The notes below the pieces were generated by a model. The model saw nothing but the letters and a program-made list of their open reading frames with translations. It did no database searches and was not told the origin of the DNA. DNA of 64,000 nt from assembly GCA_013817245.1 (NCBI GenBank), contig JACDDA010000004.1, positions 1 to 64,000 of the forward strand, given 5' to 3'. Source of the DNA: Gammaproteobacteria bacterium. Lineage in GTDB: Bacteria > Pseudomonadota > Gammaproteobacteria > HTCC5015. Below are positions 38,551 to 63,497 of this stretch, one piece after another. Position 1 is the stretch's first letter, and the number at the start of each line of letters is the position of its first letter. Position numbers and translations under genes: made by a program.

Positions 38551-39141
38551 TTAAAAACTAACTACTAAGCCAATGCTAGCAACGTCAAGATCAGTCGAGT
38601 TATCTACGTTACCCACATCGTCTTGACTTAACTCAAATTTATAACGTTCAAGTTCTACACGCAGTGCAAAATGTTCGTCAAAATTAAAGTTGGCACCTAC
38701 ACCATAAAAAACCTCATCGCCATCAAACTCAGTGTTAACAACGTTAAGTATTTCTACATCGTTTTTCCACCACAATTTTCCGCCTTTAATAAACGGTTCG
38801 ATCACGTCTGAGATAGGAAACATACCTACTAAAGCCAAGGTGTTACCTTCAAATTCTGAAGAATAACCAGGGCCTTCCGCTGAGCCGTAATTATTGATAG
38901 CCGCTTCAAGCGCGATATGACGATTAAATTTTGCGCCAATGAGAACTTTATAAGCAGAATCTTTATCGTCATCAAACTCTTCATTGTCGACACGAGTTAA
39001 ACCGTAAGCGGCACCGGCATAAATACCTGGCTTAGAAAATTCTGACTCAGCAGCAACGTTGCCACTAGTAAGAAGTAGGCCAGAAGTAATAGCTAAAGCT
39101 ACTACGCTGTTTCTTGCTTGCTTCGTTTTAAAATTTTTCAT
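38551..39141 (-). CDS. Outer-membrane beta-barrel protein, OmpA-like/porin fold
   Basis: A 196-residue exported protein: Sec signal ending GNVAAES near residue 32, then alternating beta strands with YAGAAYGLTRVDNEEFDDD at the start and a terminal phenylalanine (IGLVVSF) typical of outer-membrane insertion. Several acidic loops suggest a small eight-stranded barrel. It shares strand order and the ending (VELERYKF, LDVASIG) with the protein at 61549-62142; both have stress-box promoters. Function unknown. Confidence 0.85.
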   Translation of the reverse strand: MKNFKTKQARNSVVALAITSGLLLTSGNVAAESEFSKPGIYAGAAYGLTRVDNEEFDDDKDSAYKVLIGAKFNRHIALEAAINNYGSAEGPGYSSEFEGNTLALVGMFPISDVIEPFIKGGKLWWKNDVEILNVVNTEFDGDEVFYGVGANFNFDEHFALRVELERYKFELSQDDVGNVDNSTDLDVASIGLVVSF

Positions 39142-39196
39142 GATAATTTCCTGAGTTAATTAACAAGGGAATTGATATAAATCAACTCTTGGAACA

Positions 39197-39238
39197 ATTG
39201 TCGCGGAGGCTTGATAAATGGTCTGTGCGGTGTCGCTC
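39197..39238 (-). promoter_or_regulatory. Stress-box promoter of the first barrel gene (9/10 match)
   Basis: In transcription direction GAGCG-N4-CGCAC-AGA (39225-39238), then GACAAT (39197-39202) after 22 bases. Centre about -41.5. The box ends 84 bases before the start codon. Confidence 0.68.
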
Positions 39239-39373
39239 ATAGGAATTTTTAGAATTTTTTTCTAAAATTTTTAATATAATATTAGTATGTAGACATTGAT
39301 TATTAAGGTATATATGCAAATAAATAAAGAACTGCACGCAAATATAAAATTTATTCAATTTAATATTTATTAA

Positions 39374-39415
39374 GTGTGATAACGAACCGATCCAAAATAG
39401 ACATCTTCATAATAT
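39374..39415 (+). promoter_or_regulatory. Degenerate stress-box promoter of the first DUF883 gene (8/10 match)
   Basis: GTGTG-N4-CGAAC-CGA (39374-39387), then TAATAT (39410-39415) after 22 bases. The same TAATAT at the same distance stands in the promoter of the DUF883 paralogue at 63078. Expected start near 39422. Confidence 0.5.
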
Positions 39416-39510
39416 ATTTGCAAGTAAGCATGAAAAACAAGACATAAAGATAATTTATGTTTTTAAATCAACTCATGTTTTTTTACAACACTCTAAAAAG
39501 GTATTATTTT

Positions 39511-39999
39511 ATGGAAAACAAAATCGGTAGTTCTGATCATGATTCATCAATGAAGAAAGACGGCAACGGTCAAAGCCGAGCAAATAGCCATGAATTTTCT
39601 GCTAATGCTCAAGGTAGCAGTGCAGGTTATTCTGCTAGTGCGCAAACTGGCCAAGCCGGTAAATCTGGTAAAGCTGGTCAATATGCAGGCAGCCAAGCTA
39701 ATAAAGCGCAATCAGGCATAAGCGGTGAATTCCACAGCTTTATTTCTGACATTGAAGAGTTCATTACATCTAATACCTCTTTAACTGGCGAAGATTGGGC
39801 GCAAGCAAAAGCAAAGCTTAATGCGCGCATTGCTTCTGCTAAAGAATCTGTACAAGAAATGAGTGGTGCGGTTGTAGAACGTGCTCGTACTACGGCACGT
39901 GCTACCGATGGATATGTACGTGAAAATCCATGGAAAGCAATTGGTGTAATGGCTGCTTTAGGTTGCTTAGTAGGTGTAATAGCGGCTCGCCGTCGTTAA
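39511..39999 (+). CDS. DUF883 (ElaB/YqjD-like) membrane-anchored protein
   Basis: A 162-residue member of the ElaB/YqjD/DUF883 family, whose E. coli members are stationary-phase, membrane-anchored proteins reported to bind ribosomes. The N terminus (about 70 residues) is a low-complexity Ser/Gly/Gln/Ala region. Then comes the conserved core (EFHSFISDIEEFITSNTSLTGEDWAQAK) and a C-terminal helix ending in AARRR. AAAAAGG nine bases upstream supports the ATG at 39511; an ATG at 39457 is in frame and would shorten the leader. Paralogue of 63078-63497. Confidence 0.88.
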   Translation: MENKIGSSDHDSSMKKDGNGQSRANSHEFSANAQGSSAGYSASAQTGQAGKSGKAGQYAGSQANKAQSGISGEFHSFISDIEEFITSNTSLTGEDWAQAKAKLNARIASAKESVQEMSGAVVERARTTARATDGYVRENPWKAIGVMAALGCLVGVIAARRR

Positions 40000-40034
40000 T
40001 AGGCAAGCAAGGCGAGTTTTACTTGTTAGGTTGT

Positions 40035-40153
40035 GCGTCATGCTCTTGCTAGAAGTAGCGGCCCTGGGAGGCTTGTATAAATGCTTCTTCTAGATATCGC
40101 TCGTAAATGCCCTGGACAGTATTTACGAAAATGGAGGCGATATAGCATGACGC
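40035..40153 (+). ncRNA. Structured RNA element: packed three-way junction
   Basis: Three perfect stems nest with almost no unpaired joints. An outer stem GCGTCATGCT (40035-40044) pairs with AGCATGACGC (40144-40153). Arm A has CTAGAAG (40049-40055) with CTTCTAG (40087-40093), extended by AGC/GCT across one U-U mismatch. Arm B has ATATCGC (40094-40100) with GCGATAT (40137-40143), plus CGTAAAT (40102-40108) with ATTTACG (40121-40127). Arm B abuts arm A and the outer stem directly. Both arm loops contain GCCCTGG. It lies between the DUF883 gene and a terminator. No known RNA family is recognised, the strand is not settled, and it could also be a dispersed palindromic element. Confidence 0.55.
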
Positions 40154-40182
40154 CCCTACCAAGTAATACCATGTAATAATAG

Positions 40183-40280
40183 AAAAGCAGTGACAACAAT
40201 AGGTTGCTCACAAACGTCGGACAACTTAATTACATTTAGGCGACGTCTTTGTCGAACAGCCTTTTGTCTTCACTGCTTTT
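40183..40280 (+). ncRNA. Second structured element, branched hairpin
   Basis: An 11-bp outer stem AAAAGCAGTGA (40183-40193) pairs with TCACTGCTTTT (40270-40280). Inside are a small hairpin CAAC/GTTG (40194-40206) and a 10-bp stem ACAAACGTCG (40210-40219) with CGACG-TC-TTTGT (40241-40252). It starts 29 bases after the three-way junction and ends 15 bases before a terminator, so both may belong to one transcript or to the 3' UTR of the DUF883 gene. Confidence 0.45.
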
Positions 40281-40295
40281 TGTGTAATCCAAATA

Positions 40296-40325
40296 AAAAA
40301 GCCAGAACTAAAATTCTGGCTTTTT
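40296..40325. terminator. Bidirectional terminator between the DUF883 and ferritin-like genes
   Basis: Stem AAAAAGCCAGAA with TTCTGGCTTTTT, loop of six, with A and T runs on both sides. It serves the rightward transcript of the structured elements and the leftward ferritin-like gene that ends at 40349. Confidence 0.9.
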
Positions 40326-40348: not shown

Positions 40349-40927
40349 TTACAAAATATTGGCGCTAGTTGGCTCAGCTGATCCCGTTGATTGGGAAAAG
40401 TCGGCTAATAACCCCGCTAATTCATCTGCATGATCTTCTTCTACCGCTAAAATTGATTTTAATAAATGAGTAGTTGTAGAATCTTTATCACCTAGATATT
40501 GTATAAATTCACGATAGCTATCAATGGCAATGCGTTCAGCGATTAAATCTTCTTTAATCATCTCAGCTAAAGATTCTCCCGTAATATATTCAGCATGACT
40601 GCGTTGAGTGAGCGTGTCTGGCGAAAAATCGGGTTCGCCTCCTAACTGAACGATACGACTAGCGAGTTGATCGGCATGAAGTTGTTCTTCTATTGAATGC
40701 GCCATAAATTCATCGGCAATACTTTTGGCATTAATGCCGTTCGCCATAAAATGATGACGTCTATAACGCAACACGCAGACGAGCTCAGTCGCTAACGCTT
40801 CATTAAGCAATTTCAACACTTCGGTTCGATCTGCAGAATAACTCGAAGTAACGGCGCCTTGTTCAATATTTTGGCGTGCTTGTAGACGTAAGGTTTTTAC
40901 ATCAGTTAAGGCGTTTTCAGTAAGCAT
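40349..40927 (-). CDS. Ferritin-like/bacterioferritin-type diiron protein
   Basis: A 192-residue four-helix-bundle protein of the bacterioferritin/ferritin-like group. Likely iron ligands are in LATELVCVLRYRRH (near residue 48), HSIEEQLHADQLA (near residue 80), LIAERIAIDSY (near residue 129) and VEEDHADELAGLL (near residue 161). No methionine clearly placed for bacterioferritin heme was identified. It likely stores iron or detoxifies peroxide together with the catalase and hemerythrin of the region. The C-terminal 15 residues are disordered. No stress box precedes it. Confidence 0.85.
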   Translation of the reverse strand: MLTENALTDVKTLRLQARQNIEQGAVTSSYSADRTEVLKLLNEALATELVCVLRYRRHHFMANGINAKSIADEFMAHSIEEQLHADQLASRIVQLGGEPDFSPDTLTQRSHAEYITGESLAEMIKEDLIAERIAIDSYREFIQYLGDKDSTTTHLLKSILAVEEDHADELAGLLADFSQSTGSAEPTSANIL

Positions 40928-48877: not shown

Positions 48878-48989
48878 ATCATTAATTTTGTGTGAGATCG
48901 TTCTTCAAAATCATAATAAAGTGTCTGCTTAGACTCAATACACAAGTGCAACACTTTCCGTGAAGATGAGGCTTATGAAAAGTTATCAT

Positions 48990-49075
48990 CCTTGCGCTCA
49001 TCTGGCTACATTTTACTCAATGCAAAAAAGCAGATGTAGCCTGGATGAAGCCGAATTTATTCGGCGCAATCCGGG
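48990..49075. repeat. Dispersed palindromic repeat, copy 1
   Basis: An imperfect palindrome of about 85 bases: GCGCTCATCTGGCTACA, a central segment with ACTCAATGCAAAAAAGCAGA, then TGTAGCCTGGATGAAGC. The arm TAGCCTGGATGAAGC with GCAATCCGGG is of a kind found as intergenic repeats in several gammaproteobacteria. It belongs to a 388-base gap (48878-49265) with no gene. Confidence 0.7.
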
Positions 49076-49136
49076 AACGTTCTTCACAATATCGCGGATT
49101 GCTTACGCATCAAATGATGAGGAATTAAAACCCCCT

Positions 49137-49222
49137 CCCAGATTACGCTGCGCTCATCCGGGCTACATTTGACTCAATACAAAAAAACAGATGTAGCGTG
49201 GGTTGAGCAAAGCGCTACCCAC
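49137..49222. repeat. Dispersed palindromic repeat, copy 2
   Basis: A second direct copy of the element at 48990: CTGCGCTCATCCGGGCTACA, centre ACTCAATACAAAAAAACAGA, arm TGTAGCGTGGGTTGAGC. The arms are more diverged than the centre. The pair lies between the Crp/Fnr gene and the TPM gene, both of which end here. Confidence 0.7.
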
Positions 49223-49265
49223 AGAAGGCAGTTTCATTTGGCGTTATTAAAAGGGCAGCTGAGCC

Positions 49266-57826: not shown

Positions 57827-59968
57827 TTACGCTTTTTCTTCTCTTTGCCAATGTCTATGTTTGGCAATCGCGCTAATAAATTCTTTACTTATTTGACTGG
57901 CTGCAGCAGTTGTACCCACGATCAGACCGGGGTCATCATCGGAGTCGGTGGCGACATTGGTACGTTTTATCAATTCATAGCCTTCACCATTACAAGCAAT
58001 GGTTTTGCAATGCTTATAAGCATCATTAATAAAATCGCGCGTGTCGTTTTCTTTGCTCAGCGCAGCAATACTTTTTGCGCCGCCGGGTATATAAACAGCA
58101 TCGAAAAGGACAGAACTGGTAGTTAATAAACTATGATCAACTAAAATTTCTGTGCCATCCATGCCGGTTATGCTGCCACCATGAGGCGCAATAATTTTTG
58201 TTTGAGCACCGGCTGCACTCAGCGCTTTTTGCATCGTTAACAGCGTAGTTTCATTAACTCCGTTAGCTGCTAAAATTGCAATTTTACGAGTATGAATATT
58301 ATCTAGCGCTTGCTTGGCCATGCTTAGCGCAGGTGATGGCGTAATAGCTTTATTAATTGCTTTGGGTTGATAATCTTTTGGATTGCCATCGGCAGGAATG
58401 CTTCTATTAAGTGGCAGTTCGATTTTTACAGAAGGAGAAATACCTAAACCCGCTGCTACGCGAGCGCTTAAGTTTTTATCAATATGAGCTAACATTCCTA
58501 CCATACGCTCACGAATAGCAGGTGTTTCTACTTTGCCTAATTCAAATTGCAATGCTTTTACCATATGTTGTTGTTCCCAATCAGCTTGACTGTGGAAAAA
58601 CATCGCGGCTTGGCTAAAGTGATCAAAAAATTTCTCACTTCGCTGGTGAGTTTTTTGAGCATTAATTTTTTCGGGGTGACTCACAAAACCGCTCATATCG
58701 ACACCGGCTTGCATAGGGCAACCGCCGCCTAAGCTATTGGGGGAATAATTTGCGCGGCCTTTATTAATAGTTTGGCGCATCAGCCCATCGCGCTGATTGT
58801 TATGTACTGGCGCAATTGAGCGGTTAATAGGAATTTCATGAAAATTGGGACCGCCTAAACGCAATAGTTGAGTGTCGGTATAGGAAAATAAACGGCCTTG
58901 AAGTAGGGGGTCGTTAGTAAAATCAATCCCAGGAACGATATGACCCGGATGAAATGCCACTTGTTCGGTTTCAGCGAAGAAATTATCTGGATTACGATTT
59001 AGCACCATTTTGCCAATGCGTTGAACTGGCACTAATTCTTCCGGAACTAATTTGGTGGGGTCTAACAAATCGAAATCAAAAAGATGTTCATCTTTTTCTT
59101 CAATAATTTGTACGCCGAATTCCCATTCAGGAAAATCGCCATTTTCAATTGCTTCTGCTAAATCACGACGATGAAAATCTGAATCTTTGCCTGAAATTTT
59201 TTGTGCTTCATCCCATACGACAGAATGTATGCCTAATAAAGGTTTCCAATGAAATTTTACAAAACGAGATTTTCCAGCGGCTGTGATCAAACGAAAGGTA
59301 TGTACTCCAAAACCTTCCATCATTCGATAGCTACGCGGAATAGCGCGGTCGGACATCGTCCACATAATCATATGCATGGATTCCGGCATCAAAGAAATAA
59401 AATCCCAAAAAGTATCATGTGCAGAAGCCGCTTGTGGAATTTCTTTATCAGCCTCTGGTTTAGCGGCATGAATTAAATCAGGAAATTTAGTGGCATCTTG
59501 AATAAAAAAAACAGGCATATTATTGCCAACCAAATCGTAATTGCCTTCGGCAGTATAAAATTTTACTGAAAAACCTCTTACGTCACGCGCGAGATCGGTA
59601 GAACCGCGTGAACCTAACACAGTTGAAAATCGCACAAATACAGGTGTTTGCACGGCAGGATCTTGTAAAAAACCTGCTTTAGTTAAATGTGCTTGTGATT
59701 CATATACTTGAAAATAACCATGCGCTGCCGCACCTCGTGCATGTACCACACGTTCTGGAATGCGTTCATGATCGAAATGTGTGATTTTTTCACGAAGAAT
59801 AAAGTCTTCTAATAAAGTCGGCCCGCGTTCACCTGCTTTTAAGGAATTTTGATCATCATTAATGCGCAAACCTTGATCGGTCGTAAGGTATTGTTCAGTG
59901 CCATCTTCTTTAAATGGCGTTAAATCAGCTTGTTTTAGATTTTTATCTTGTGGTTTGGACTTTTTCAT
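57827..59968 (-). CDS. katE: Catalase HPII, large-subunit clade with C-terminal flavodoxin-like domain
   Basis: A 713-residue monofunctional heme catalase that splits hydrogen peroxide. The catalytic histidine is H76 in RVVHARGAAAHG, the partner asparagine is in YDLVGNNMPVFF, and the heme-ligand tyrosine is in RLFSYTDTQLLRLG near residue 365. Residues about 565-705 form the DJ-1/PfpI-like domain of large catalases (KIAILAANGVNETTLL, VDHSLLTTSSVLFDAVYIPGGA). In E. coli katE is sigma-S dependent; here a perfect stress box lies 58 bases upstream. Confidence 0.96.
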   Translation of the reverse strand: MKKSKPQDKNLKQADLTPFKEDGTEQYLTTDQGLRINDDQNSLKAGERGPTLLEDFILREKITHFDHERIPERVVHARGAAAHGYFQVYESQAHLTKAGFLQDPAVQTPVFVRFSTVLGSRGSTDLARDVRGFSVKFYTAEGNYDLVGNNMPVFFIQDATKFPDLIHAAKPEADKEIPQAASAHDTFWDFISLMPESMHMIMWTMSDRAIPRSYRMMEGFGVHTFRLITAAGKSRFVKFHWKPLLGIHSVVWDEAQKISGKDSDFHRRDLAEAIENGDFPEWEFGVQIIEEKDEHLFDFDLLDPTKLVPEELVPVQRIGKMVLNRNPDNFFAETEQVAFHPGHIVPGIDFTNDPLLQGRLFSYTDTQLLRLGGPNFHEIPINRSIAPVHNNQRDGLMRQTINKGRANYSPNSLGGGCPMQAGVDMSGFVSHPEKINAQKTHQRSEKFFDHFSQAAMFFHSQADWEQQHMVKALQFELGKVETPAIRERMVGMLAHIDKNLSARVAAGLGISPSVKIELPLNRSIPADGNPKDYQPKAINKAITPSPALSMAKQALDNIHTRKIAILAANGVNETTLLTMQKALSAAGAQTKIIAPHGGSITGMDGTEILVDHSLLTTSSVLFDAVYIPGGAKSIAALSKENDTRDFINDAYKHCKTIACNGEGYELIKRTNVATDSDDDPGLIVGTTAAASQISKEFISAIAKHRHWQREEKA

Positions 59969-61272: not shown

Positions 61273-61314
61273 AGCTTAATTTAGCTTTGTAAGTGAATCT
61301 GTGCGTTATCGCAC
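61273..61314 (-). promoter_or_regulatory. Stress-box promoter of the lmo0937-family operon (exact match)
   Basis: GTGCG-N4-CGCAC-AGA (61301-61314), then TAAGCT (61273-61278) after 22 bases, centre about -41.5, expected start near 61266. The remainder of the 61233-61548 gap holds only this promoter and the terminator at 61494-61526. Confidence 0.8.
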
Positions 61315-61493
61315 CTAAGTGTGTTTTTTATAGATAGTCAAAAACAGCTAATAGGGTACTCATGCTTCGAAGTATCGTTTATAGAAAGTGTTTTTTATGT
61401 TGTTTTCGTCATGGTTTGAAAATTTTATAATTTTAGTGGTTCGTTAATTATAATGCTTTTATGTTTATGAAAGAATAAGTGCCTCATTAATAA

Positions 61494-62912: not shown

Positions 62913-62954
62913 AGAGTAATTATTGTAGATTCACTTGTGCGTGCGTTATGTAAC
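62913..62954 (-). promoter_or_regulatory. Degenerate stress-box promoter of the hydrophilic-protein gene (7/10 match)
   Basis: In transcription direction GTTAC-N4-CGCAC (62941-62954), then TACTCT (62913-62918) after 22 bases. The proximal half is perfect and the distal half has three changes. Expected start near 62906, 50-base leader. It stands back to back with the DUF883 promoter at 62993. Confidence 0.5.
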
Positions 62955-62992
62955 TTAAACTGAAAATAAATTCATCTTGTGAGTTACATTAG

Positions 62993-63034
62993 GTGCGATG
63001 ACGCACAGAAGGATTGGCTCTAGGCTATTAATAT
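62993..63034 (+). promoter_or_regulatory. Stress-box promoter of the DUF883-holin operon (exact match)
   Basis: GTGCG-N4-CGCAC-AGA (62993-63006), then TAATAT (63029-63034) after 22 bases. Centre about -41.5, expected start near 63041, 37-base leader. Confidence 0.82.
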
Positions 63035-63077: not shown

Positions 63078-63497
63078 ATGGACAATAAATCAAATACTTT
63101 TCCACATGATATAAGTTCATCAGCAAAATCTGCTGTTTCTAATGCATCTATTAGTCGTCAAGCTAATAATGTGAAACAGTCGGTAAGTTCTTTAGCCAGC
63201 AGCTCGCGTTCACGCATATCAGAAGAATTTCATAATTTTCTGGCGGATATCGAAGAGCTGATTACTCAAACCACTTCTTTATCAGGTGAAGATTTAGCGC
63301 GTGCTAAAGAAAAACTGAATGAGCGTGTAGAAATGGCACGTGAATCTTTAGACGATATGGGCGGTGTTATTGCGCAACGTGCTCGTCAAACAGCGGCAGC
63401 TACAGATAATTATGTACGTGATCAACCGTGGACTGCGATCGGTATTGGCGCTGCATTGGGCGTAATACTGGGCGTTGTTTTAGCGCGTCGTCAATAA
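63078..63497 (+). CDS. DUF883 (ElaB/YqjD-like) membrane-anchored protein
   Basis: A 139-residue paralogue of 39511-39999: Ser/Ala/Asn-rich N terminus (about 45 residues), core EEFHNFLADIEELITQTTSLSGEDLARAKEKL, then AATDNYVRDQPWTAIGIGAALGVILGVVLARRQ with the C-terminal membrane anchor. In E. coli yqjD, yqjE and yqjK are neighbours; here the following two genes fit the same order. AGGAGA stands five bases before the ATG. Confidence 0.92.
   Translation: MDNKSNTFPHDISSSAKSAVSNASISRQANNVKQSVSSLASSSRSRISEEFHNFLADIEELITQTTSLSGEDLARAKEKLNERVEMARESLDDMGGVIAQRARQTAAATDNYVRDQPWTAIGIGAALGVILGVVLARRQ

Follow-up and report, generated by a model that had tools for sequence, protein, structure and literature searches.

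A compact three-way junction, present as a single copy in a 2.27-Mb genome, was found at positions 40035 to 40153 of the window (the whole 64,000-nt stretch of DNA that was analyzed), in the gap between a DUF883 family gene and a convergent gene for a ferritin-like protein. The three-way structure is real and unusual but is an orphan. A single-copy orphan in this gap is therefore probably a structured end of the mRNA from the upstream gene, and we tentatively favor the reading that it may be a functional structured 3'-UTR of the DUF883 mRNA.

A tightly packed three-way junction

The core of the fold (plus strand, 119 bases) consisted of a closing stem and two arms. The closing stem was a perfect 10-bp helix (GCGTCATGCT/AGCATGACGC, 40035 to 40044 with 40144 to 40153). 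Arm A (40049 to 40093) contained a 7-bp helix (CTAGAAG/CTTCTAG, 40049 to 40055 with 40087 to 40093) and a 3-bp helix (AGC/GCT, 40057 to 40059 with 40083 to 40085) and carried the hexaloop CUGGGA (40064 to 40069), within which a GGA is located. Arm B (40094 to 40143) had a first helix of 7 bp (ATATCGC/GCGATAT, 40094 to 40100 with 40137 to 40143) and a second helix (CGTAAAT/ATTTACG) that comprised 10 pairs in the MFE structure (40101 to 40110 with 40119 to 40128); its loop (CCUGGACA, 40111 to 40118) and a 3'-side bulge of 8 nt (AAAUGGAG, 40129 to 40136) each exposed an unpaired GGA. The stems of 10, 7(+3), and 7+7 bp described in the initial annotation were seen both in the sequence and in the MFE structure. 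The close packing of arm B against both other helices was also borne out, as it abutted arm A and the closing stem, leaving two of the three joints without a free base and four free bases in the third. Weaker outer helices added in the MFE structure (UAGG/CCUA, UUACUUG/CAAGUAA, and GU/AC) extended the complete fold to 40016 to 40169 on the plus strand, for which the MFE and centroid structures were identical (z about -6).

The strength and rarity of this fold were then compared with those of shuffled, simulated, and genomic sequences. An MFE of -59.5 kcal/mol was obtained for 40018 to 40168 (z = -5.9), and none of 200 dinucleotide shuffles was as good. Using a search for tight junctions, defined as an outer stem of at least 10 perfect pairs enclosing two arms of at least 7 pairs with no more than 12 free bases, 40035 to 40153 was the sole match in 1.504 Mb of the genome, and no match was detected in 5.57 Mb of Markov-simulated sequence. 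When 13,780 windows covering a further 1.04 Mb of the genome were compared by MFE residual, only 4 exceeded the fold; two of these were TwoAYGGAY regions, and a third was another dispersed palindromic repeat. The simulations, the genomic search, and the shuffles indicated that the fold is well beyond chance, as had been proposed from the economy of its joints.

A 7-mer, GCCCTGG, had been reported in both hairpin loops. It was present in both arms but was partly in stem in the MFE structure, and a 7-mer of one kind or another recurs in approximately 39% of 119-mers produced by shuffling, so that the shared motif is weak evidence and the weight placed on it was unjustified. A more telling feature common to both arms is the GGA at unpaired positions.

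Position of the fold between the DUF883 and ferritin genes

The DUF883 gene (YqjD/ElaB-like; 39457 to 39999, plus strand) was identified as an ORF with a match to Pfam PF19029 (DUF883_C; E = 2e-10), and its 3' end was about 20 to 35 nt upstream of the fold. The convergent gene for the ferritin-like protein (Pfam PF00210; E = 2.2e-27) occupied 40349 to 40927 on the minus strand. Directly downstream of the fold was a second long imperfect palindrome with A-tract/T-tract ends (40182 to 40281; -41.8 kcal/mol, z = -8.3), which was terminator-like on both strands, unrelated to the three-way fold, and also single copy by whole-genome BLAST. This palindrome resembles an oversized bidirectional terminator. 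A bidirectional intrinsic terminator predicted on both strands (40296 to 40325) serves both convergent genes.

As the fold lies between the end of the plus-strand gene and two terminator-like hairpins, it was read as the DUF883 3'-UTR on the plus strand; viewed from the minus strand, it is beyond the ferritin gene terminator. No convincing promoter-like site was found just upstream of the fold, and read-out from the DUF883 gene is therefore favored. The small ORFs in the gap encoded no convincing protein. We infer that plus-strand read-out from the DUF883 gene would transcribe the fold and that the transcript would end at the long hairpin and terminator (40182 to 40325). The compact junction might then block 3'-to-5' decay of the message, and the fold could possibly be cleaved from it to give a stable small RNA.

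The neighborhood contained other envelope and stress genes, with Pfam matches to a Crp-type regulator, an OmpA-like protein, and BON. A long stress/envelope run was apparent from 36043 to 63966, comprising DUF4398/OmpA, the Crp-type regulator, two DUF883 genes, ferritin, and BON, and 57827 to 59968 was taken, by eye from its translation, to be a catalase gene. The DUF883 paralogue (63078 to 63497) was followed by another gene, and no junction fold was present after it. A strong hairpin was observed upstream of this paralogue (62930 to 63010), and a 25-nt segment of this hairpin (TTAGGTGCGATRACGCACAGA) was shared with 61298 to 61322 on the opposite strand. Another convergent-gene gap (48960 to 49230) contained a cluster of palindromic dispersed repeats of the GTAGCCTGGATGAAG... 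and GTGGGTTGAGCAAAGC... types (z = -5.5).

Copy number, homologues, and a palindromic DNA alternative

Whole-genome BLAST with the fold detected only itself and its own palindrome, and a covariance model of the fold had one match in its own genome, thereby excluding for this genome the many copies of a dispersed repeat. No homologues were detected by BLAST or with the covariance model in 94 relatives, none of them a congener. Only two weak matches, at chance level (E = 0.06 and 0.2 per genome), were obtained with the model in 369 genomes of the class. Homologues with compensating changes, for which the initial annotation had advised a covariance search, were thus undetected in both sets, again with no congener included; without a congener in the sample, this absence says nothing against constraint. 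The DUF883 gene was undetected in three family-level genomes, which thus offered no orthologous gap for comparison. Loci with relatives of the ferritin gene (in Paraperlucidibaca, Methylovulum, Thauera, and others) had a partly common stress neighborhood and no such fold.

Database searches agreed with the earlier view that the fold belongs to no known RNA family. Rfam gave no match to the fold at gathering scores in the window, and scans of 411 and 129 bases at E values up to 10 detected terminator-driven or chance matches only. BLASTN against plasmids and phages matched the terminator hairpin and left the fold unmatched, while a 14-mer scan of viral contigs produced more than 80 matches, all by chance.

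The main rival to the 3'-UTR reading is a palindromic DNA element, the relic of a small nonautonomous mobile element or insertion in a tolerant convergent gap, with no current RNA role. Of the 53 pairs in the stems, 51 were Watson-Crick and 2 were G-U, whichever strand was read. The minus strand folded as well as the plus strand (z = -5.8 versus -5.9), and folding as single-stranded DNA gave a z score of -7.8. Because the stems are almost purely Watson-Crick and without strand asymmetry, a DNA palindrome fits equally, and because both strands fold equally well, an RNA is unproven over palindromic DNA. A relic would also be in keeping with the second, unrelated palindrome adjoining the fold and with the richness of this genome in palindromic dispersed elements. 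Within the sequence, only the position of the fold and the exposure of its GGA triplets favor RNA over a DNA palindrome.

Two observations argue against a recent mobile element, namely, the lack of a second copy and the absence, on direct reading, of a target-site duplication on either side of the outermost inverted repeat (TTACTTG...CAAGTAA). The fold is not the remnant of a retron (msr-msd), since the genome has no reverse transcriptase (PF00078 was unmatched). An integron attC site was rejected because, on direct reading of the sequence, the order of the ends does not fit. Overall, a DNA relic is possible but somewhat unlikely. Of the original proposal of a selected RNA fold or structured mobile element, the claim that the fold exceeds chance stood, while selection as an RNA was undemonstrated, as no homologues were detected that could show covariation and the stems had no strand asymmetry.

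A structure that is neutral and arose by chance, in intergenic sequence free of constraint, would account for the lack of homologues among the 94 relatives and 369 class genomes (no congener included), and intergenic terminator hairpins often raise folding scores. Such an origin is nevertheless very unlikely given that no shuffle folded as well and that neither the simulations nor the rest of the 1.5 Mb of genome searched yielded a comparable junction.

Exposure of GGA triplets and a putative link to CsrA

The 151-nt fold contained three GGA triplets, all of them fully unpaired, with one in the loop of each arm and the third in the bulge of arm B. Only 0.13% of shuffles had as many as three fully unpaired GGAs, as did 4 of the 639 tiles from the window, in a test that was chosen after the fold had been seen. 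CsrA is encoded in this genome (PF02599; E = 8.7e-25; C5:219930-220085). The exposure of all three triplets in loops and bulge, together with the presence of this gene, suggested that CsrA is the most likely partner. As the GGA test was post hoc and the A-N-GGA core was present in the arm B bulge only, binding of CsrA by the fold as a 3'-UTR RNA stays hypothetical, and we consider it unlikely. If the GGAs in the loops and bulge did bind CsrA, the product would be a small CsrA-binding (sponge) 3'-UTR RNA like RsmW or TwoAYGGAY.

A GacA upstream site is typical of RsmX/Y/Z and not of RsmW. No such site (TGTAAG-N6-CTTACA) was found with up to 3 mismatches in 38702 to 40030, and the counts in the window were those of chance. 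Searches for known RNAs of this kind detected no match to CsrB in the genome and a subthreshold match to RsmZ that was rejected as spurious, being made up of a terminator and the last part of a coding gene.

TwoAYGGAY RNAs in the same genome

A scan for strong folds in the genome detected dispersed repeats with ACARGGATGT hairpins, and three regions of strong folding matched TwoAYGGAY (Rfam RF01731; gathering score, 43 bits), an RNA predicted to bind CsrA (PMC4333381). At least 30 matches were present in the 2.27-Mb genome at E values up to 1e-4, and 21 of the 30 matches listed were at or above the gathering score. Examples were located at L235 1272-1396 and 1501-1615, L217 18068-18219, and L049 15506-15868. 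Among the 30 listed copies, 22 formed 11 pairs, all of which were head to head (minus then plus), with a spacing of 78 to 125 nt in ten pairs and 273 nt in one. Several copies were between convergent genes.

In an alignment of ten copies, 93% of pairs were kept and 15 pairs were changed on both sides, with far lower values in controls. The number of independent changes is below 15 because most of the sequence variation separates two main types of copy. This covariation supports the TwoAYGGAY junction as predicted from the aligned copies. No copies were detected in the family's three other genera, and 18, 14, and 6 copies were present in a few distant genera; this patchy distribution suggested mobility. 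Judged by sequence, the TwoAYGGAY pairs look like a mobile or amplified RNA element of the CsrA-binding type.

The orphan fold and TwoAYGGAY share an outer stem with two arms, and the arm loops of TwoAYGGAY hold one GGA-containing motif (PMC4333381). The three-way junction with two hairpin arms was present in both the MFE and centroid structures of the fold, and its 119-nt core compares with about 115 to 160 nt for TwoAYGGAY. Both arm loops of the fold (CUGGGA and CCUGGACA) contain GGA but neither contains AYGGAY, of which CUGGAC in loop B and AUGGAG in the bulge each match 5 of 6 letters. Unlike TwoAYGGAY, the fold is single copy, has longer arms and an 8-nt bulge, and has no head-to-head partner. 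RF01731 did not match the fold in the window at the gathering score or in the 411- and 129-base scans at E values up to 10. A model (R2) built from the genome's own TwoAYGGAY copies scored the fold at 4.7 bits, with a better chance match on the other strand, and no real alignment of the fold with these copies was obtained using MAFFT. The fold was not assigned to TwoAYGGAY, since despite a common topology and the GGA at its arm tips it fails the sequence test of this family.

A highly diverged relative of these dispersed RNAs is thus a highly improbable origin for the fold, as the similar core size, the matching topology with GGA at both arm tips, the near matches to AYGGAY in loop B and bulge, and the occurrence of several of the at least 30 copies between convergent genes are set against the failure of RF01731, R2, and MAFFT and the missing head-to-head partner.

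Comparison with known systems

Were the RNA made and able to bind CsrA, the DUF883/ferritin stress locus would be linked to global carbon-storage control, and one genome would hold a second, unrelated three-way-junction scaffold presenting GGA sites. We regard as quite unlikely the further proposal that the fold represents a novel kind of 3'-UTR RNA, restricted to this lineage and sequestering CsrA through a compact three-way junction with three GGA sites, that evolved independently in a genome already rich in TwoAYGGAY. If the fold is only a palindrome, it illustrates that a strong fold, taken alone and with no covariation behind it, is insufficient to identify an RNA gene.

Bacterial MITEs and palindromic repeats (ERIC, NEMIS, and RPE) resemble the fold as highly paired intergenic stem-loops of approximately 100 to 200 bp (PMC2229807). 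The fold differs from MITEs in being single copy and branched rather than a long stem-loop, and neither a target-site duplication nor TA ends were seen. Sponge RNAs of the CsrB/RsmZ type (RF00018 and RF00166) have exposed GGA motifs in common with the fold, which has fewer GGAs, no upstream activating site, and no match to these families.

A further likeness is to RsmW, an RsmA-binding RNA of Pseudomonas aeruginosa, which is located 3' of a protein gene, has no evident promoter or GacA site of its own, and carries several loop GGAs. RsmW provides a precedent for a 3'-UTR-derived RNA without a GacA-activated promoter (PMC4950607). The fold has three GGAs, compared to seven in RsmW, and a three-way-junction layout, and it is by position and GGAs that the two are likened.
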